Under the pieces are notes generated by a model. That model had not been told where the DNA came from. It worked only from the letters and a program-made list of their open reading frames with translations, and did not search any database. A program made the position numbers and the translations under genes. Below, piece by piece: positions 29,054 through 38,649 of a stretch of DNA of 64,000 nt. Origin of the DNA: Fibrobacter sp. UWB10 (GTDB lineage: Bacteria > Fibrobacterota > Fibrobacteria > Fibrobacterales > Fibrobacteraceae); NCBI RefSeq assembly GCF_900182935.1, contig NZ_FXUE01000002.1:558001-622000 (forward strand). The letters run 5' to 3'. Each line of letters starts with the position of its first letter. The first letter of the stretch is position 1.

Positions 29054-30349
29054 TTATGCCTTCAAGCGCTCCACGATGGCTTCTGTATTTCCTACGAACA
29101 TTTCGCCGGTGCGCATGTCCTTGTATTCGAATTCACCTGCGGCTGCCTTGGAACCGTCGACGTACACGACGATTTTCGCGCCCTGGTAATTGGCCTGGTC
29201 GAGCTGCTTGCCCATTTTCATGGCGGCGAGCGGGTGTGCGACCGAGAACGGCTTACCCGTGCTTGCGCTACGGAAAACCTGAGCGGTTTCGAAAACCTTC
29301 TTCATGTCGTTGCCGAAGCTTGCGATGTAGAAGTCCACGCTCTGCTTGGGGCTCGGGAGCAACTTGTGTTCGGAGAGCAAGTCGGCGAGAACCACGTCGC
29401 CCATGCCAAAGCCCACGCCTGGAATGCGTTCGCCACCGAGCTTTTCGGTGAGGCTGTCATAACGGCCACCGCCAGCGATAGCGCGCATGGATTTACCCTT
29501 GTCAAAGACTTCGAACACGATGCCGGTGTAGTAGGCGAGGCCGCGAACAATGGAAAGGTCCAGGTTCACACATTCGCCGTAACCTGCGGCGGTAAGCGTT
29601 GCGAACAGGTCTTCGATTTCGGCGAGGGCTGCAGTTGCGTTTTCGCTATGCACCTTGGTCTTGACTTCTTCGATGCTCTTGCAGCTCATGAAGTCATCCA
29701 GCTTTTTCACCTGGTCTTCGGAGAGGCCTGCATCGGCGAGAGCTTTGGCGAATGCTTCGGGGCCGATTTTTAAGCGGCGGTCAAGCACTGGGTAAACGAG
29801 TGCCGGATTCGGGGCGCCGATTTCTTCGAGGTAGGTGGCCAAAAGCTTGCGGCTAGAAACGCCAATCGCAAATTCGCCGTCCTTCAGGCCGAACTTGCGG
29901 AGCATGGTAGCGATGGCTGCCATCAGGTCGGCTTCGGCGTAAATGCTTTCGGTACCGATGATGTCCATATTCAGCTGGAAGAATTCGCGAAGACGACCCT
30001 TCTGTGCCTTTTCGTAGCGGAAAAGGCGCGGCATGCTGAACCACTTGAAAGGCTTCTTGAGTTCGCGGGCCTTCTGGATTACGAGGCGGGCGAGCGTCGG
30101 AGTCATTTCGGGGCGGAGTGCGATTTCGCGGTCGCCCTTGTCTTTAAAGTTGTAAAGCTGGCTTACGATTTCTTCGCCGGACTTGCCTGTATACAGCTCC
30201 AGATGTTCAAACATCGGGCCTTCGTATTCTTCGTAGGCAAAAGATTCGGCGACGCTACGCCAGGTGTCAAAAATGTAATTCTGGATGCGCTCGGCTTCCG
30301 GGTAAAAATCGCGTGTGCCCTTAGGCAACTGAGGAATAGAAATGCTCAT
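29054..30349 (-). CDS. hisS: Histidine--tRNA ligase
   Basis: 431 aa, normal length. Class II motifs are present: PKGTRDFYP at the start, motif 2 FRYEKAQKGRLREFFQ (about 111-126), the HisA-type stretch LDLSIVRGLAYYTGIVFEV and GGGRYDSL, and a C-terminal anticodon-binding domain. It charges tRNA-His. A TACATTTG element lies 8 bases before the start. Three envelope genes follow closely on the same strand, so hisS probably heads their operon. Confidence 0.97.
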   Translation of the reverse strand: MSISIPQLPKGTRDFYPEAERIQNYIFDTWRSVAESFAYEEYEGPMFEHLELYTGKSGEEIVSQLYNFKDKGDREIALRPEMTPTLARLVIQKARELKKPFKWFSMPRLFRYEKAQKGRLREFFQLNMDIIGTESIYAEADLMAAIATMLRKFGLKDGEFAIGVSSRKLLATYLEEIGAPNPALVYPVLDRRLKIGPEAFAKALADAGLSEDQVKKLDDFMSCKSIEEVKTKVHSENATAALAEIEDLFATLTAAGYGECVNLDLSIVRGLAYYTGIVFEVFDKGKSMRAIAGGGRYDSLTEKLGGERIPGVGFGMGDVVLADLLSEHKLLPSPKQSVDFYIASFGNDMKKVFETAQVFRSASTGKPFSVAHPLAAMKMGKQLDQANYQGAKIVVYVDGSKAAAGEFEYKDMRTGEMFVGNTEAIVERLKA

Positions 30350-30357
30350 AGTGCCTG

Positions 30358-30365
30358 CAAATGTA
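30358..30365 (-). promoter_or_regulatory. -7 element TACATTTG directly before hisS
   Basis: Ends 8 bases before the hisS ATG (30349). If the transcript starts 5-8 bases after the element, as in Bacteroidetes promoters, it would begin at or next to the start codon. Confidence 0.55.
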
Positions 30366-30430
30366 GAAAAATGCAGGCAAAAGGCAGAAGAAAGTAAACG
30401 TTAAAAGTAGGGAAGCAAGCTCTTTTTTGG

Positions 30431-30525
30431 TCACACGGATTGGATAAAACTAACGTTTTATCTAATTGGACTTTAAATATTTTTTCATAAAAGATTTTGC
30501 GTTAGCAAAATCAAATCCGTGTGGC
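30431..30525. repeat. Inverted pair of TAAC-loop hairpin repeats (copies A and B)
   Basis: Copy A (+): CACACGGATT, then stem GATAAAAC-TAAC-GTTTTATC at 30443-30462. Copy B (-): CACACGGATT, then stem GATTTTGC-TAAC-GCAAAATC, occupying 30493-30512 on the plus strand. The CACACGGATT boxes form 10-bp inverted ends of the whole 95-base unit. The stems differ in sequence but remain fully paired, and the loop is constant. A third copy is at 37336-37370. Confidence 0.85.
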
Positions 30526-30545
30526 ACTTTTATTGATTCTTGTGC

Positions 30546-33500
30546 TTACTTGACTTCTATCATGGGGCTGGTTTCGCTGAGCAAGTAGGTCCATTCTTCG
30601 CGAATCTTGTTGTATTCGGCCGGGTCGGCGTAAAGCGCGAAGGTGGTCCACTTGATGCTGTTCTTGCCGTCAAAATTCTTCTCGTAGCTCACGTAATCCG
30701 GGTCGCGGCTAAGCGGCTTCGGGCCGGTAATCTTGACCGTCTTGCCGCTTGCAGCTGTAACGCTTAATTTGTATGCAAACTGCGTTTCGTGCGGCATGCG
30801 AATCGGGTGGTGGCGCTTTGATACCTTCGGGAGTTTGAACAGGCTGCGTTCCCACACGTTCGGGAAGCGTCCCTTGAGTTCGGATCCGCCTTGGCCGAAG
30901 TAGCCCTTGGAGGCGTATGTCACAATCAGGGCCAGCGGCTTGTTGAATTCGGCAAGGTTTTCGATGCGGATGTTGCCGATGCTCACGTCGGGAATGCCCG
31001 AGGCGAGGAATTCTTCCATCAGCTTTTCCTGTTCCTTGGCGTCGCGGCCAAAGAAACGGTTGCGCATCACACTGGCGAACTTGCCCTGCAGCGAAATGGA
31101 GTCGCGGAATTCGCAGGCACCATCGTTTCCGATAAACAGGCGGTGTTCAATACCGATTTGGTGTTCCTGATTGTCTTCGAGAATCGGCGTGGTGACCACA
31201 TGGCTGCTGTCGTCGTTGATTACGAGTGCGACTTTGCCTTCCATGTCGAGCGGCACAGGTCGATCGTTGCCGGTTTTGTCGGTGGCATCGACCCAGCGTT
31301 CGGTGACTTGACCTTGCGCCGGAATATAGAGAATCATGTGGTTGAACTGCTGAATCGTCGGGAGGCCGGCAAAGCCTTCTTCGGTCAGGTGAATGGCCGT
31401 CAGGTAGCTCTTGATGCCGATGGATTCAAGCATTTCCTTGAGCAAGAGTGCCATGTCCTTGCAGTCACCCTGGTGCTTTTTGAGCGTGACTTCGGCGGTT
31501 TGCGGAATCAGACTGTGTCCGCCGAATCGCACGTCGCGGTAGCGGATATCGTGGCGCACAAAGTTCACGATGGCTTTGACGGCGTTGTCGTTGGCTTTGC
31601 TGCCGCGGACTTCGCGGGCTTTTTCTCGCACGCTCACGGCCTGCTTGAACTGGTGCTTGATCAGGTTCTGGTAATCTTCGCCCACGTTCTTCCATTCCTG
31701 CTTGCCGGTGAGCATCAGGCCTGCGCCAAAGTCGCGGTACACGGGCATGTAAAGTTCTTTGCGAATGATAACCGGGTTCTCGATTTTCCATTCGATGCCG
31801 CCCTTGATTGCCTTCTTTTCCAGCGGGCCGTATTCTTCGGTCACGAAGCGGGCTGTGTCGGCGTAAATGCGGAAGCTGGATTCACCCACGGGAACATCCT
31901 TACTGCTCACGAAGTCGGTGTAAGGAATCATGCCCTTGTTTTCGATATTCGTGCGGCTGAACTGCAGGTAAATAAAGTCGCCCGGTTCAAGTTCTTGCAG
32001 CGGGAAGTGCGCTGTCTGCGATTCGTTCTGCCCGCCGATTTCGGTGGCGTAGGTAATGTAGGCACCGTTCAGGTTCGCCTTCTGCTTCAAGTTCCAGTTG
32101 CTGTCGTAGACTTCGAGGGCGTTCAGGTAAATGCGGTCGAATCCAGGCAAAAAGTCGAAGTTGAATTCGCGATAGATGGCGGCGCCGCGAATGTCGAGGA
32201 TTTCCATGAGCATTTCGTCGGTGCGGACCCAGTTTGCGCCTTTTTCGGCCTTCAAAGTCTGCTTGTTGTAATGCACGACGGCGGGGAAGTCGCCTTCGGT
32301 GCCCTGCTTTTTAGCTGTTTCGCTGAGGAGGCTCTTCAGATTCTTGGTGCGTTCTTCCACCGGCGTAATCGGCTTTTGCAACGTGCGGTTGTCAGCCTTG
32401 CCGAGGAATGCCTTCGTGGCGCTGAGGAAACTCTTGGCGTCTTCGTTATCGGGCTTGAGGGCGAGAGCCTTGGTGAGCGACTTTTCGGCGTCGCGGTAGT
32501 TGCGGCTGTAGAAGAGAATCTTGCCCTGCGTGGTCCAAATCTTGTAGTCGTTGCGGTCCTTGGCGAGCGTTTCTTCGCTGATGGCGCGGGCTTCTTCGTA
32601 ACGGCCAAGGAACATGAGGGCATCCATCAAGGTGGTGCCGAGTTCTACACTCATGCCAAAGCGACGGCGTACCTGGTAAAGAATGTCCACGGCTTCGGCG
32701 TACTGGTCGAGACCCATATAAGTCTTGGCGAGGTAAACACCCAAGCGGCTGCTCGGCTGCGTGTCGTAAAGGCGTTGCACGACGACCAAGGACTGGTTGC
32801 GCTGACCGAGACCCCAGAGGGCATCGCTCAAGTTGATGACGTATTCCGGATTGTTCGGCGTGTAACGCAGGGCTGCTTCGGCGCATTCGCGGGCGCGGCC
32901 GTAGTCGAACAAGGCTTCGTACATTTCGCCCAAAATCGAGAGCAATTTGCCGTTCTTTTGCACCAGTTCGCGCTGGCTTTCAAAATGGCTGATGCCGGGG
33001 CCGTAAAGTTCCTTCATCTGGTACACGAATCCGCAGTTAATCAGGTACAGCGGTTCTTCGGGATCCATGCGGTTGGCGCGTTCAAAGTAGCTGAGGGCTA
33101 CGAGCGGCTGGTTTTCGAGCAGGCGTAAAATACCCACTTGGCTCATGATGGCGGCGTTGAACTTAGCCTGTTTCTTGGCGGATTCAGCGTCGCTGGCGGT
33201 GGCGGGCTTTTCGCCCACGGTCAGGCCTTCGATACCGTGCTGCATGACCTTGGCGAATTTCTTTTTGTTCACGCCCTGTGTCCAGCTGACAATCATGATT
33301 CCGCGGCCGTCATCATAGAAATAGCGGCCTGTATAATAGAAGTCGAACTTGTTGACTACGTGAGTCAGGCTAAAGTCTTGCGCATAGCGGTCACCGACCT
33401 TTTGGCGGTGGCTTTCAAGCGTCGGATTATTCGGGTCTACGCCCAGGCGTACGAGTAGCACCTTGAACAAATCCTGCGAATTCACGGCGTCGCTTTCTAC

Positions 33501-34403
33501 TGTCGCACCGTAAACGAACAGCGAAACGTCCTCGGCCTTGTTGCTAAGCACCAGGTCCGGGTCGTCGTTCTGGCGGGCGATACCTGTCCAGTGATGCCAG
33601 AGGGTGTCTTTGACAGCCCAAGTGTAGCCGAGGGCGGGGGAGTTGAAGCTTTGCACGTTGTTCGGCGAGAGTTCCGGGCCTTCGCTGGCGGCGGTTTCGC
33701 GCATGCTGAAGTTTGCGAAGAATTCCTTCCATTCGTTCTTGAGTTCGCCCGGCTGGAGCGGCGTGTCAGTGGCCGAAAGCGTGAGCGTGTACACGCGGCT
33801 CCCGGCGCCTGTGACAAAGCCGACGGCCTCGTAGGGGCTGTCGTAGCGCTTGCCCGCGACGTCAAAGAAAACGCCTGTACCGCCGAAATTTTCTTCGGGA
33901 TATGTTTCTGCGAGAGTTGCCTTCTTGCCGCTAGATTCAAATGCCTGCATCTCCATCTGGGCGCGGTCCATGAGTCGCATGGGTTCGCCCTTGGGGAGTT
34001 CGATTTCGACCAGGACCGCGCGGCGTCCTGTGCTTGCGTTATAAAATTCGTAGGGGACGCCGCTCTCGTGGGCGCTCCCGTCGTCATCGCCCACGAGCGC
34101 CCAGTCGCCTGCGCCGCCCTGAGGCAAAATGAAGCTGAATCCGTCGGAACTGAAACTGTTGGCGGTGTTTTTGCGGGTCGATTTGGTGCTCGCGTCCGAA
34201 TTTACTGCCGAACCTTCGTCAAAATAGTCGTCGGTGTAGCTCCCGGAATTAGCTGCCTGCGAACCTTCGGACTGCGGGTCCGATTCGGTGAGCGGCTTTC
34301 CGTTACCGGCGCAAGAAATTAAAGATGCAACAAACAACAGCCCAAACAGCGGGGCGCAAAAACTGGGGATACGACTCAATTTTTCAAACAAAGAATTGCT
34401 CAT
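30546..34403 (-). CDS. Very large lipoprotein with TPR repeats, DUF3857 and transglutaminase-like domain
   Basis: 1285 aa. The N-terminus is a lipoprotein signal with lipobox LISC (Cys about 32). A first unknown domain (about 90-390) is followed by about six tetratricopeptide repeats (about 410-660), a DUF3857 beta domain (about 700-900) and a transglutaminase-like domain with an apparent triad Cys981 (in GDCKD), His1022 (in FNHMILY) and Asp1039 (in WVDATD). The DUF3857-transglutaminase pair is typical of FCB-group envelope proteins; activity is usually presumed to be protease or acyl transfer. A TATTTTTG element lies 5 bases before the ATG. Monocistronic by context. Confidence 0.85.
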   Translation of the reverse strand: MSNSLFEKLSRIPSFCAPLFGLLFVASLISCAGNGKPLTESDPQSEGSQAANSGSYTDDYFDEGSAVNSDASTKSTRKNTANSFSSDGFSFILPQGGAGDWALVGDDDGSAHESGVPYEFYNASTGRRAVLVEIELPKGEPMRLMDRAQMEMQAFESSGKKATLAETYPEENFGGTGVFFDVAGKRYDSPYEAVGFVTGAGSRVYTLTLSATDTPLQPGELKNEWKEFFANFSMRETAASEGPELSPNNVQSFNSPALGYTWAVKDTLWHHWTGIARQNDDPDLVLSNKAEDVSLFVYGATVESDAVNSQDLFKVLLVRLGVDPNNPTLESHRQKVGDRYAQDFSLTHVVNKFDFYYTGRYFYDDGRGIMIVSWTQGVNKKKFAKVMQHGIEGLTVGEKPATASDAESAKKQAKFNAAIMSQVGILRLLENQPLVALSYFERANRMDPEEPLYLINCGFVYQMKELYGPGISHFESQRELVQKNGKLLSILGEMYEALFDYGRARECAEAALRYTPNNPEYVINLSDALWGLGQRNQSLVVVQRLYDTQPSSRLGVYLAKTYMGLDQYAEAVDILYQVRRRFGMSVELGTTLMDALMFLGRYEEARAISEETLAKDRNDYKIWTTQGKILFYSRNYRDAEKSLTKALALKPDNEDAKSFLSATKAFLGKADNRTLQKPITPVEERTKNLKSLLSETAKKQGTEGDFPAVVHYNKQTLKAEKGANWVRTDEMLMEILDIRGAAIYREFNFDFLPGFDRIYLNALEVYDSNWNLKQKANLNGAYITYATEIGGQNESQTAHFPLQELEPGDFIYLQFSRTNIENKGMIPYTDFVSSKDVPVGESSFRIYADTARFVTEEYGPLEKKAIKGGIEWKIENPVIIRKELYMPVYRDFGAGLMLTGKQEWKNVGEDYQNLIKHQFKQAVSVREKAREVRGSKANDNAVKAIVNFVRHDIRYRDVRFGGHSLIPQTAEVTLKKHQGDCKDMALLLKEMLESIGIKSYLTAIHLTEEGFAGLPTIQQFNHMILYIPAQGQVTERWVDATDKTGNDRPVPLDMEGKVALVINDDSSHVVTTPILEDNQEHQIGIEHRLFIGNDGACEFRDSISLQGKFASVMRNRFFGRDAKEQEKLMEEFLASGIPDVSIGNIRIENLAEFNKPLALIVTYASKGYFGQGGSELKGRFPNVWERSLFKLPKVSKRHHPIRMPHETQFAYKLSVTAASGKTVKITGPKPLSRDPDYVSYEKNFDGKNSIKWTTFALYADPAEYNKIREEWTYLLSETSPMIEVK

Positions 34404-34408
34404 GACGA

Positions 34409-34416
34409 CAAAAATA
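34409..34416 (-). promoter_or_regulatory. -7 element TATTTTTG directly before the large lipoprotein
   Basis: Matches TAnnTTTG and ends 5 bases before the ATG (34403). It overlaps the T-run of the lgt terminator, so termination and initiation sites are stacked. Confidence 0.45.
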
Positions 34417-34441
34417 AAAAAACGGAGCGCGCAAGCCCCGT
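34415..34441 (-). terminator. Intrinsic terminator after lgt
   Basis: On the minus strand ACGGGGC-TTGCGC-GCTCCGT (34422-34441) folds with one G-T pair and is followed by TTTTTTTA. It would end the orn-PBP-lgt transcript. Confidence 0.7.
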
Positions 34442-34509
34442 CTTTCTATAGTCCAAAGTGGAATATGTTTCTGTCTTGTGTAAAAATAAATTAGAAAACG
34501 AAACGGTTA

Positions 34510-35391
34510 TTAGGTTGATGCGTTCTCTTTGGGCTCTTTTTTCTTCTGCCTATAAATCAGAACAATCAGCCAGATTAAGCCGGTCAGGAACATGACGCTG
34601 CAAAGTGTCTGTCCGCGGCTCATGCCGAACAGGTCCACGCGGCCAAGGTGTGCATCGGGTCTGCGGAAAAATTCGATAAAGAATCTAAAGAGGCCGTAGC
34701 CCATTAGGTACAGGCAGGGCATCTTGTCGCGCAGCAGCGGAATGCGCCTTAAGTTGTACAAAACTACAAACAAAATAACGCCTTCGAATAGCATTTCGTA
34801 AAGCTGGCTCGGGTGGTGTAGAATCGGGTTCGTAATCGGACTATCGTGGGCGAGCGGGAACCACATGCCAATGCCGCTTGTAGTGACTTCGCCAAAAAGT
34901 TCGCCGTTAATAAAGTTGCCCCAGCGGCCCCAGGTGTAGGCGAGCGGAGCCAGCATAAAGCAAAGGTTCAGGCCTTCCCACACGTTCATCTTGTTGCGCT
35001 TCAGGCCAATGTAGGTGAAAATCGTGCCAAGAATCATGCCGCCGTGGTAGCTCATGCCCGAAATGCCCGTAAAGTGGTAGCCGAGCGCATCGTGGGTCAT
35101 CGGGAAAATGATTTCGGTCGGGTTGGCGAGGTAGTAGCCCGGTTTGTAGAAGAACACGTAGCCCAGGCGCGCACCGATAATGATACCCGCGATAATCCAG
35201 GTGAACAGGCTGTCGAACTGGTCCTTGGTGTAGCCCAGCTTTTCCTTCTTGTTCACGTGCATCAGCGTCAGGTAGCCCGTCACGAAGGCGAAAATGTACA
35301 TGATGCCGTACCAGCGCACCGGGAAGCTCCCCAGCGTAAAGGCCGTTCCGTCAAAATAAGAAGGGATTAGATTCCACCATGTCGGTTCCAT
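34510..35391 (-). CDS. lgt: Prolipoprotein diacylglyceryl transferase
   Basis: 293 aa, normal length, with seven membrane segments. The signature GRWGNFINGELFG (about 155-167), the SYHGGMILG loop and HPSQLYEM are all present. It attaches diacylglycerol from phosphatidylglycerol to the lipobox cysteine, the first step in maturing lipoproteins such as those at 30546, 54715 and 63301. It starts one base after the penicillin-binding gene ends. Confidence 0.97.
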   Translation of the reverse strand: MEPTWWNLIPSYFDGTAFTLGSFPVRWYGIMYIFAFVTGYLTLMHVNKKEKLGYTKDQFDSLFTWIIAGIIIGARLGYVFFYKPGYYLANPTEIIFPMTHDALGYHFTGISGMSYHGGMILGTIFTYIGLKRNKMNVWEGLNLCFMLAPLAYTWGRWGNFINGELFGEVTTSGIGMWFPLAHDSPITNPILHHPSQLYEMLFEGVILFVVLYNLRRIPLLRDKMPCLYLMGYGLFRFFIEFFRRPDAHLGRVDLFGMSRGQTLCSVMFLTGLIWLIVLIYRQKKKEPKENAST

Positions 35392-35392
35392 T

Positions 35393-36742
35393 TTACTTTC
35401 CTTTCTTGGGTAAATATTGGTGAGCCCAGTAGTTAAATAGCATTCCGGCGACCTGGGTTGCCGGCTGCGAACGCATGCCTTGCAAGTCGTGCACCTGCAT
35501 AATCACAAGTACCACCGCCTTGTTCGGGTCTTCCTTGGACTGTGCAAAACCCATGAACCATTCGTAGCGGCCGTATGGGTCGTGTCCGTCGAGGGAACCC
35601 GTCTTTCCGCCGATGGTGAGGGCGTTGAAGTTCTTGCGGGCCATGTGTCTGGTCGAAATGTTTTTGCGGGCGGTGCCGTGCGTGACCGTGCGAATCATCG
35701 CTTCGCGTAGGCCGTAATAAGTGTTGTCGCTGAACTTGCCTACATCAAGCGCGATACGGCTCTTGGGAGCGAATCCGTCCAAGTTAGCGGCCCAGGGAAT
35801 TTCCAGCGGCTTTTTCGTGAGAATGGAGCGGACCTGTGCGGCTGCAAGGAGCGGGGTCAAAGTGGTGGCTTCCGTAAAGCCGCTGCTGACTTCGGCGAGG
35901 CCGTAGCCGGTATCGGGCGGTGCGTAGTTGGAACGCGGGGGGAGTGCACCCGGGAAATTCATGTTGTAGCCCAGCTTCTTGGCGGCGCTGCGCAGGCGTT
36001 CGGCACCCACGTTCATGCCCACGATGGCCATGGGCGGATTAGCGGACTTGGCGTAGGCGTCTTGCAGTTCGATAAACGGACCCTTGTAGCCTTCCTTGAC
36101 GCGCAGCTGGTTCTTGTAAAGGTGAATGCTTGAGCCAATCATCGGGATTTGCGATGTGAGCGAGTAGCGGTTTGATTCCATGGCCGCCGAAATGGTGACC
36201 GTCTTTGCAAGCGATGCCGCCGGGAAGGTATTCTTGATAAAGTAGTCGGGCTTTTCTTGCACGTGGTTGTTGCGGCGTTCGCCCCAGGCAATAATTTCGT
36301 TGCTTTGGGGGTCTACCATCAAGATGACCGCGTGTTCGGGGCGGAATCGGCGCAGCAGGTTGTCGATTTTTTCGGCCATGAAAACATCTTTCTGGGCCTT
36401 GATGTGCGCGCTGTCGATGACGTCTGCTTCGGTCGGATTATCGGGAACCACGGCGGCGGCAACTGTTGCCTGCGTATTCGCCAGGTCTTCGGAGTCTGCC
36501 TTCGGGAAAATTCCCGTTTCGCTTAGCTGTTCGGCCTGCAGGGTGGCGTCGTTTGTGGCTGTAGAATCGATTGCTTCGGCGTATTCGTCTTCTTCAGCGG
36601 GCTTCGGGGGCTCTTTTTCGCTAAAAATGCAGGTGCCCATCAGGGCGCAAAGTCCCATAAAAACGGAAAAAACGATAATTCGGTTGCGAATCCTAACGGC
36701 GTAGGGGAGCCTTTTTTTCGGAAGGTAATTATTATAGTCCAT
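35393..36742 (-). CDS. Penicillin-binding transpeptidase-domain protein
   Basis: 449 aa. A membrane anchor at about 21-40 is followed by an acidic disordered linker (45-120) and a single transpeptidase domain with all three motifs: Ser177-x-x-Lys180 (SLAK), Ser-Ala-Asn (233-235) and Lys-Thr-Gly (380-382). It should crosslink peptidoglycan or be a related D,D-peptidase. It is shorter than class B PBPs because the N-terminal dimerisation domain is missing, so it resembles a stripped-down PBP or a PbpA-like enzyme. Between orn and lgt in one operon. Confidence 0.85.
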   Translation of the reverse strand: MDYNNYLPKKRLPYAVRIRNRIIVFSVFMGLCALMGTCIFSEKEPPKPAEEDEYAEAIDSTATNDATLQAEQLSETGIFPKADSEDLANTQATVAAAVVPDNPTEADVIDSAHIKAQKDVFMAEKIDNLLRRFRPEHAVILMVDPQSNEIIAWGERRNNHVQEKPDYFIKNTFPAASLAKTVTISAAMESNRYSLTSQIPMIGSSIHLYKNQLRVKEGYKGPFIELQDAYAKSANPPMAIVGMNVGAERLRSAAKKLGYNMNFPGALPPRSNYAPPDTGYGLAEVSSGFTEATTLTPLLAAAQVRSILTKKPLEIPWAANLDGFAPKSRIALDVGKFSDNTYYGLREAMIRTVTHGTARKNISTRHMARKNFNALTIGGKTGSLDGHDPYGRYEWFMGFAQSKEDPNKAVVLVIMQVHDLQGMRSQPATQVAGMLFNYWAHQYLPKKGK

Positions 36743-36757
36743 CTTAAAGTATAAACT

Positions 36758-37303
36758 TTACTTGAAAATCGTCTTGCGGTAGTACTGGAGTTCGGCGATG
36801 CTTTCGCGGATGTCGTCCAAGGCCTGGTGCTTTTCCATCTTCTGGAATTCTGGCAGGTCCGGGTACCAGCGGAAGGTCAGTTCCTTGATAGAACTCACGT
36901 CGATGTTTCTGTAGTTCAGCCAGCCGGTCAAAAGCGGCATGTACTTGTACAGAAAACGCCTGTCCTGCGTAATAGAATTTCCGCAGAGCACGTTTCCGCG
37001 TTCGGTGGTGAAGGGCTTGATGAAGTCGAGCGTCATCTTGTCGGCGTCGGCCATGGTGAGTGTCGACTTCCGGCAGCGTTCCACGAGCCCGCTCTGGGTG
37101 TGGTGACGCTTGTTCCAGTCGTCCATGCCTTCAAAAACGTTTTCGGTCTGGTGAATCGCCAAGACGGGCCCTTCAGCCAAAATATTCAAGTTCGGGTCGG
37201 TTACGATCGTCGCAATTTCGAGAATGACGTCCCTCTCTGGCTCAAGACCCGACATTTCGAGGTCCATCCAGACGAGGTTCGGTGCGCTTTTAATTCTTGC
37301 CAT
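36758..37303 (-). CDS. orn: Oligoribonuclease
   Basis: 181 aa, standard length. DEDDh exonuclease motifs: LVWMDLEMSGL (about 10-20), ITQDRRF (about 110-116) and a C-terminal EKHQALDDIRESI (His and Asp). Degrades 2-5 nt RNA fragments and pGpG. Upstream on the minus strand there is a near -7 element, TAAATTG, 10 bases before the ATG. It starts the orn-PBP-lgt operon. Confidence 0.96.
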   Translation of the reverse strand: MARIKSAPNLVWMDLEMSGLEPERDVILEIATIVTDPNLNILAEGPVLAIHQTENVFEGMDDWNKRHHTQSGLVERCRKSTLTMADADKMTLDFIKPFTTERGNVLCGNSITQDRRFLYKYMPLLTGWLNYRNIDVSSIKELTFRWYPDLPEFQKMEKHQALDDIRESIAELQYYRKTIFK

Positions 37304-37335
37304 AACGCGGACAATTTAGCAAAAAAATTAGAGAG

Positions 37336-37370
37336 GCCACACTGATTCGATTTTACTAACGTAAAATCTG
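37336..37370 (+). repeat. TAAC-loop hairpin repeat (copy C)
   Basis: CCACACTGATT, then stem GATTTTAC-TAAC-GTAAAATC at 37349-37368. The flanking box and loop match copies A and B at 30431-30525, while the stem sequence differs and still pairs perfectly. It lies between the divergent orn and Rpn genes, 98 bases before the Rpn start. Confidence 0.8.
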
Positions 37371-37467
37371 CTTTGTAAAAAGAAATAAATTTTCGCAAAA
37401 TTGGCTGCAAAACGCCCTAAAAAAGCGTGTATAGAAAGCGGGGGTCAACTTTAACCCAAAGGAAACT

Positions 37468-38559
37468 ATGTACACGCGAAAAAAGAAATGCGCAGACCCG
37501 ATTCTTGAAATGCTTGGTCTCGGACATCTGTACCTGGGCAAAAGGCCGTTGGTGTGGATTCCAGATTTGTATTCCCGAAAAGAATCCGCTGAAAAAAGAA
37601 AAACTGACTCAAGCGAACTGCATGACAAGTCTGTTCCGTATGATACGGGTGAAACTGATCTTTCGGAATATTTCGTGAAAACAAAGACTGACGGACCGTA
37701 CGCGAGTCTTCTCAGTGATGTCACGTTCAAAAAGGCTTTCTCGCCGGATACGGAAACTGGTAAAGCCAATCTCATCAATCTACTGAACGATATGCTTAAG
37801 GGACAAATCCTGTGCAAGATAAAGGATGTTTCTTCGCAACAGTCCGAATTGAACGATTCCGGCAGCAAGGCTTCTAGAACATCGATATTTGACCTGCATT
37901 GCATTGATGAAGAAGGCCGTCTGATAGAAATAGAGGTTCAGCTTCGCAGAAGGACAAATTTCTTAAAGAGGCTAGCTTTCTATTCAAGTCAAATGGTCGT
38001 CAAACAAGGAAAGCCTGGACGCAAATGGAATCACGACATCAAGCCGACCTATGTTATTGCAATTGCGAGGCACTCCGTTTTTAATGACGGTGAAGCGATT
38101 CACCGTGCGGGAATTCTCGATTATAAAACACATGAACAATGGGTGGACTGTGCAAACTTTACAGTTGTGGAATTGTCTAAGATAAAAAGGATTGTTTGCA
38201 AAAAAGATGATGATGCGACCAAGTGGATGTTTGTTTTCCGGTATCTAAACCGTCTGGAGCGGCTTCCGCCTGCGTTAAACGCTGGAAAGTTCAAAGGCTT
38301 GCTTGAACCGGCGAAAATAGCTAGATTCAATAAAAAGGAACTTGAAAGGTATAGGCGCACTATGTACACGGAATGGGACAGATACGGCGAAGAAGAGGCT
38401 TTTGCAGAAGATCATCCTGAATACATCAAGAAAATTGGGGATGAGGCTGTGGCGAAGGTAAATAAGAAATTTGCGACTCGTGATAAGAAAATAGCTAAAT
38501 TTTTGCAATCTATAGGCGTTTCCTCTCAAGATATTGCCTCTGCTTTTGCTATCAAGTAA
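37468..38559 (+). CDS. Rpn-family nuclease/putative transposase (PD-(D/E)XK)
   Basis: 363 aa. Core motifs: SDVTFKKAF (83-91), FDLHCIDEEG (141-150) and LIEIEVQLR (152-160), giving the Asp and Glu-x-Gln of the PD-(D/E)XK nuclease site. Unusually, about 80 residues precede the SDVTFKKAF element that normally stands near the N-terminus; this extension is basic and Lys/Ser-rich. A good AAGGA lies 6 bases before the ATG. It ends with SIGVSSQDIASAFAIK, the helix typical of these proteins. Family members promote recA-independent recombination in vivo. Confidence 0.88.
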   Translation: MYTRKKKCADPILEMLGLGHLYLGKRPLVWIPDLYSRKESAEKRKTDSSELHDKSVPYDTGETDLSEYFVKTKTDGPYASLLSDVTFKKAFSPDTETGKANLINLLNDMLKGQILCKIKDVSSQQSELNDSGSKASRTSIFDLHCIDEEGRLIEIEVQLRRRTNFLKRLAFYSSQMVVKQGKPGRKWNHDIKPTYVIAIARHSVFNDGEAIHRAGILDYKTHEQWVDCANFTVVELSKIKRIVCKKDDDATKWMFVFRYLNRLERLPPALNAGKFKGLLEPAKIARFNKKELERYRRTMYTEWDRYGEEEAFAEDHPEYIKKIGDEAVAKVNKKFATRDKKIAKFLQSIGVSSQDIASAFAIK

Positions 38560-38649
38560 TAATTGTTCTTAAAGTCTAGTTACAAATGAATTTGGAACGG
38601 GTGCCGTACAGGTGCCCATTTTATCTCAAAATTAGCGATTGTGATAATA

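Follow-up and report, generated by a model that had tools for sequence, protein, structure and literature searches.

REPINs consist of tag-plus-hairpin units arranged as inverted doublets that fold in single-stranded DNA, reach tens of copies per genome and accompany a gene that is flanked by the same units and is their presumed mobiliser, the RAYT transposase (TnpA_REP, an HUH Y1 enzyme). CGTC-tagged palindromic repeats (dRS3, the Rickettsia palindromic elements) have 8-9 bp stems and 4-5 nt loops, occur mostly as head-to-head dimers, some of them heterodimers, and carry a CGTC/TGTC/CCTC tag, a stem starting with AT pairs and a CCA tail; they have no known dedicated transposase, and palindromic repeats of that kind have been posed as an open question (PMC3733652). 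The MITEs of IS elements are gene-less derivatives of a left and a right end with terminal inverted repeats, and in IS200/IS605 (TnpA_IS200) subterminal hairpins are the recognition structures.

The repeats described here, from Fibrobacter sp. UWB10, share with the REPIN-RAYT systems the tag-plus-hairpin unit, the inverted doublet folding in single-stranded DNA, the copy number and a flanked gene as presumed mobiliser. That gene, however, encodes a predicted PD-(D/E)XK protein of the GxxExxY family and not an HUH Y1 protein (PF01797), a 10-nt CACACGGATT box takes the place of a GTAG tag at the hairpin foot, and box and loop are constant whereas the stem is free to vary in sequence. The CGTC repeats are alike in stem, loop and dimer layout, but their tag, AT-paired stem start and CCA tail are lacking here, and the repeats here enclose a candidate partner gene. 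As in MITEs, gene-less derivatives of left and right ends have terminal inverted repeats in common with a longer, presumably autonomous element, whose only gene, unlike that of a MITE parent, is GxxExxY (TIGR04256/PF13366) rather than a recognised transposase. Subterminal hairpins also recall IS200/IS605, but here they are inverted, not direct, and enclose no Y1 gene; the IS200 of the UWB10 genome has ends unrelated to the hairpin family.

The window is a stretch of 64,000 nucleotides from the UWB10 genome (G000; 3.48 Mb in 10 contigs). A first-pass annotation, made from the letters alone, had placed three hairpins in it, and all three were found at those coordinates:

30430..30525, no strand assigned: copies A and B, a short inverted-pair element, REPIN/MITE-like and non-autonomous, boxes outward (pattern match, DNA fold)
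30432..30441, plus strand: copy A box CACACGGATT
30443..30462, plus strand: copy A hairpin GATAAAAC-TAAC-GTTTTATC
30493..30512, minus strand: copy B hairpin GATTTTGC-TAAC-GCAAAATC, with the left-end stem type of GxxExxY elements
30514..30523, minus strand: copy B box CACACGGATT
37338..37347, plus strand: copy C box CACACTGATT
37349..37368, plus strand: copy C hairpin GATTTTAC-TAAC-GTAAAATC, solitary, left-end stem type
37468..38559, plus strand: Rpn-family PD-(D/E)XK nuclease gene (TIGR01784/PF12784), neighbour of copy C

In each copy a 1-nt spacer separates box from stem. The box, stem and loop pattern, with at most 3 mismatches allowed, matches only copies A, B and C within the window, and gave zero matches in 100 shuffles of it. 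The inverted pairing of A with B stands as annotated, and the unit measures 92 bp from box to box (30432-30523). Single-stranded A-B DNA is predicted to fold with the boxes paired and both hairpins formed (-21.8 kcal/mol for the plus strand, z -6.95; -20.4 for the minus strand, z -6.38), and the reading of the pair as a small, non-autonomous, mobile-like unit is upheld. Copy C is solitary, as described, and represents an end-type singleton; its stem is of the left type, like that of B, whereas the stem of copy A (GATAAAAC) fits neither the left nor the right class. The annotator's remark that no named family fits agrees with Rfam, which returned no match in window positions 29900-38000. We treat the Rpn gene as a neighbour of the repeat system, not as a member of it or a functional partner of copy C.

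The annotation had named two findings that would count against it, a lack of further copies in the genome and stem changes without compensation; neither was seen. The same pattern gave 48 matches in G000 versus 0 for a reversed control, and a covariance model (R1) built on 34 aligned copies gave 62 at a cut-off of E<=0.01. Among the 34 aligned copies, 98.9% of stem cells are paired, both partners have changed in six of the eight stem pairs, and covariation scores 0.698 versus 0.199 for shuffled alignments, with 0 of 500 shuffles scoring as high. Covariation of the arms, for which three copies alone were too thin a basis, thus stands genome-wide. On its own it does not prove selection on structure, for which the annotation had taken it as evidence, because arm-to-arm correction by template switching can also maintain perfect palindromes; the stems form a modest number of discrete alleles. 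In the alignment A1 (34 sequences; consensus GCCACACGGATTnGATTTTACTAACGTAAAATCT) the box and a C-TAAC-G core are nearly fixed and the stem is free, the tag being CACAC[G/T]GATT plus 1 nt. Many G000 copies lie in box-outward inverted pairs like A-B, and the whole is a structured repeat family with an inverted-pair unit.

R1 matches occur in 12 of 61 family genomes (62 in G000, 49 in a genome of the same species, then 31, 20, 12 and fewer), and within the genus Fibrobacter the distribution is patchy, most species having none. Presence varies between strains, a point that the annotation had proposed to check: the A-B element is missing at its site in G059, of the same species, and in G026, G050 and G082, where hisS closely adjoins the next gene, while copy C and the Rpn block (window 37300-38600) are kept in G059 and are replaced after orn by other sequence in G050, G026, G034 and G036. 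A nucleotide-level clean empty site, sought in Fibrobacter by joined flanks, was not found, since intergenic regions are replaced wholesale and turnover is fast; the comparison yields presence and absence.

A likely parent of the repeats, which extends the earlier reading, is an element with GxxExxY as its only gene. At two loci of G017, from another genus of the family, a gene is tightly enclosed by inverted hairpins in the order box, hairpin, ~10 bp, ATG, 127 codons, stop, 2-3 bp, hairpin, box. Its product belongs to GxxExxY (TIGR04256, 150.2 bits, cut-off 35; PF13366, 141.3 bits, cut-off 22). Nine such genes (8 intact, 1 fragment) are present in six of 38 Fibrobacteraceae genomes, and all nine adjoin hairpins of the family, most on both sides and a few with one end lost or altered. 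The gene is found in 6 of 13 hairpin-positive genomes, three of these counted by BLAST matches, versus 0 of 25 others, which include two without an R1 screen and G007 with a single weak R1 match (p=6e-4). A full element spans ~450-475 bp and runs from an [RY]CACACGGATT box through the left hairpin (stem type GATTTTnC, loop TAAC, usually at the 5' end of the gene), GxxExxY and the right hairpin (GRAAnnnC, usually at the 3' end) to an inverted box. Short pairs and GxxExxY elements have box, loop and both stem types in common, and 23 of 28 short pairs are left/right heterotypic (expected 44%, p=5e-5); they usually combine a left-type with a right-type end, as deletion derivatives would. Searches for a GxxExxY gene in G000 (62 copies), G059, G036 and G034 found none; G000 has lost the gene or never had it, and its hairpin copies are therefore orphan derivatives.

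Other forms of the ends were seen beside these. Loci L323, L205 and L120 have a long variant of ~150 nt, composed of CACACGGATT, a small hairpin, a CAAATGCTAGGCTC...GCCTTACGCATTTG stem and the TAAC hairpin, which is probably the source of partial R1 matches at model positions 10-37. At L206:2552 and 2918 a different small hairpin (CACACGGATTGTTCAAGGAACCAAATG, CACACGGATTGTACAAAGTACCAAA) comes after the box, so that two hairpin types share it.

A scan of 84,980 species genomes gave 80 GxxExxY loci. Across phyla, inverted repeats scoring >=15 surround the gene at 48 of 74 loci versus 3 of 2079 random positions and, after dereplication, at 29 of 49 loci versus 2 of 342 neighbouring control ORFs. 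The ends are of several types: CACACGGATT plus TAAC hairpins in Fibrobacter and Treponema; AACAAACGGATTTGTT plus TAAC hairpins in a second Treponema group as well as in MAGs of Bacteroidales and Alphaproteobacteria; CTACGGATT..TCTGATT arrays (type P) in Prevotellaceae and Muribaculaceae; and other CACGRATT-like arrays elsewhere. Because some of the host genomes are MAGs, an isolated cross-phylum case could reflect a binning error. End type follows the protein tree: 21 of 24 rows of one protein clade (support 100/96) carry the TAAC-hairpin label, one further TAAC label (L251) lies outside it, type P ends belong to another clade, and end type changes 7 times on the tree versus 25.8 times when shuffled (0/200).

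Inverted hairpins of the Fibrobacter family also enclose, in Treponema, most GxxExxY genes of a single protein clade. Eight Treponema genomes with CACAC-type GxxExxY hold 64, 53, 26, 14, 12, 8, 4 and 2 R1 copies, counts that include in part the ends of the GxxExxY elements themselves, and six genomes with array-type GxxExxY hold 0. Treponema stems are 98.4% paired, with a covariation score of 0.793 versus 0.189 shuffled (0/500) in an alignment fitted to the model. A DNA methyltransferase gene of Treponema berlinense holds a 79-bp pair in frame, and four plasmid-borne homologues are without ~27 residues there, with flanking sequence kept, which by sequence comparison makes the gene a filled/empty site at the protein level. 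At L375, L378 and L386, also in Treponema, the central linker of hsdS contains short in-frame pairs, read as ...LSHGLDFANAKS...ETALAGSNPCDI..., which could promote specificity shuffling.

From its sequence and an AlphaFold2 model (pLDDT 92.5), GxxExxY is a predicted PD-(D/E)XK nuclease-fold protein, widespread and uncharacterised. Residues E28, D68, K80 and Q92 are invariant and E78 near-invariant among 46 sequences. The nearest fold is Cas4 (Sulfolobus SSO0001, 4ic1; Z 9.7, rmsd 3.9 over 102 residues), followed by restriction, Cas4, RecB and Holliday-resolvase folds at Z 6-8, a level at which the likeness may be generic. Searches of PADLOC and PHROGs gave only weak matches (E about 0.004), and a PDB sequence search gave nothing credible. 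TIGR04256 is mentioned only in passing in the open literature searched, and nothing on point was found on such repeats in Fibrobacter or Treponema.

We consider it probable that the repeats are the terminal ends, and the gene-less derivatives, of compact mobile elements that carry GxxExxY as their single gene. On this best reading the copies are REPIN/MITE-like: gene and ends are associated, and the gene would account for their mobilisation. In the proposed mechanism, pairing of the two boxes in single-stranded or cruciform DNA would leave both hairpins standing out in a clover-like junction, and the GxxExxY nuclease would recognise box plus hairpin and cut near the outer box edge. Copies with or without the gene would thereby be transferred or duplicated in trans, mostly into new intergenic sites. 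Binding and cleavage of the ends by GxxExxY, and its role as driver of their mobility, are inferred. Flanking target duplications, suggested in the first-pass annotation as a further check, did not emerge: 27 elements, whose exact boundary is uncertain, showed no excess over shuffles at any offset, and in this they are unlike MITEs.

An alternative that we rate as unlikely, though the strongest of those considered, is that GxxExxY travels only as cargo, perhaps as a nuclease for defence or addiction, and that the hairpins are sites of another host or trans-acting recombinase. The correlation between clade and end type would also arise if gene and ends were inherited together, so the gene could be cargo and not mobiliser. 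It is consistent with cargo that G000, G059, G036 and G034 have many copies and no GxxExxY, so that another or an extinct mobiliser is needed there, and that GxxExxY elements often lie within restriction-modification islands. One such island, at L206, also holds an abiF RNA (L206:1557-1593; RF03085, 41.4 bits), the only match that Rfam gave elsewhere. Five FISUMP (PF09603) lipoprotein genes of G000 are likewise bracketed by such hairpins:

C2:282445-283985, FISUMP lipoprotein gene
C2:770385-771913, FISUMP lipoprotein gene
C3:64324-65302, FISUMP lipoprotein gene
C3:251879-253177, FISUMP lipoprotein gene
C4:249178-250707, FISUMP lipoprotein gene

In that genome 17 of 46 hairpin clusters lie <=800 bp from a FISUMP domain versus 1.9 expected. 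The clustering may reflect co-duplication, cargo or preferred insertion, and the GxxExxY-element reading does not account for it. FISUMP cassettes as the system itself were rejected, since hairpins without FISUMP surround GxxExxY and occur in Treponema. Different FISUMP genes occupy the same Sua5/dehydratase site in three species.

Against cargo, GxxExxY is the gene inside the ends across Fibrobacterota and Spirochaetota, and the ends differ between GxxExxY clades. Moreover, PF05635 genes, present in 19 of 22 of these genomes, are flanked by inverted arrays of other kinds (scoring >=15 at 7 of 30 loci versus 0 of 529 controls), so CACACGGATT ends are not generic cassette ends. These PF05635 genes (L324-L353), of the four-helix-bundle, 23S rRNA IVS type, are often flanked by inverted degenerate arrays of ~7-8 bp units, such as GTTACGGGTTACGAGTTACG and TTGGCTATTGGC, unlike GxxExxY ends, and may represent a parallel class of element. 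Intergenic regions of Fibrobacter also hold arrays, for example TTAGAACTTAGAACTTAGAGCTTAGA and GTCTACTGCCTACTTCCTACT (L284-L286, L297-L300, L328), the TTAGAACTTAGAACTTAGAGCTTAGA type resembling the array that flanks an F. intestinalis PF05635 gene.

It is improbable that the hairpins act mainly as RNA (terminating transcription in both directions, stabilising mRNA or being excised like an IVS) and owe their spread to duplication and recombination only. Compensatory stems, the constant TAAC loop, the mostly intergenic position of copies and a gene between complementary arms, which recalls 23S rRNA intervening sequences, would suit such a role; yet the boxes, which rank with the best-conserved parts, are outside the hairpins, the reading frame continues through several Treponema copies in hsdS and a methyltransferase, and Rfam has no match. 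Least probable are true REP/REPIN sequences mobilised by RAYT, for despite a similar architecture (tag plus hairpin, inverted doublets, up to ~60 copies, single-stranded hairpin; PMC3116915) membership fails, and RAYT/IS200 was rejected as partner, because Y1 transposases are missing from most hairpin-rich genomes (no PF01797 in G059, G036, G034, G026, G091, G064 and G084), the sole Y1 gene of G000 encodes a 145-aa IS200-type protein without these ends, the repeat occurs at 0 of 17 tested Y1 loci, and there is no GTAG or CGTC tag.

Returning to GxxExxY as the putative mobilising gene, the tie to specific terminal structures gives this family a direct, testable function. The data suggest a widespread mobile-DNA system, undescribed in the open literature searched. 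With more reserve, at somewhat short of even confidence, we propose that GxxExxY proteins are the enzymes of a large, undescribed class of bacterial mobile elements, present in many phyla, in which every clade has a terminal code of its own (TAAC hairpins or inverted CACGRATT-type arrays) and which yields gene-less repeats, and that PF05635 genes may form a second. The link to GxxExxY offers a model for palindromic repeats that have no transposase, and may account for the degenerate arrays of CACGGATT type that surround such genes in many phyla. Were a small PD-(D/E)XK protein to move DNA with hairpin ends, transposition would have a route distinct from those of the DDE, HUH, serine and tyrosine enzymes.
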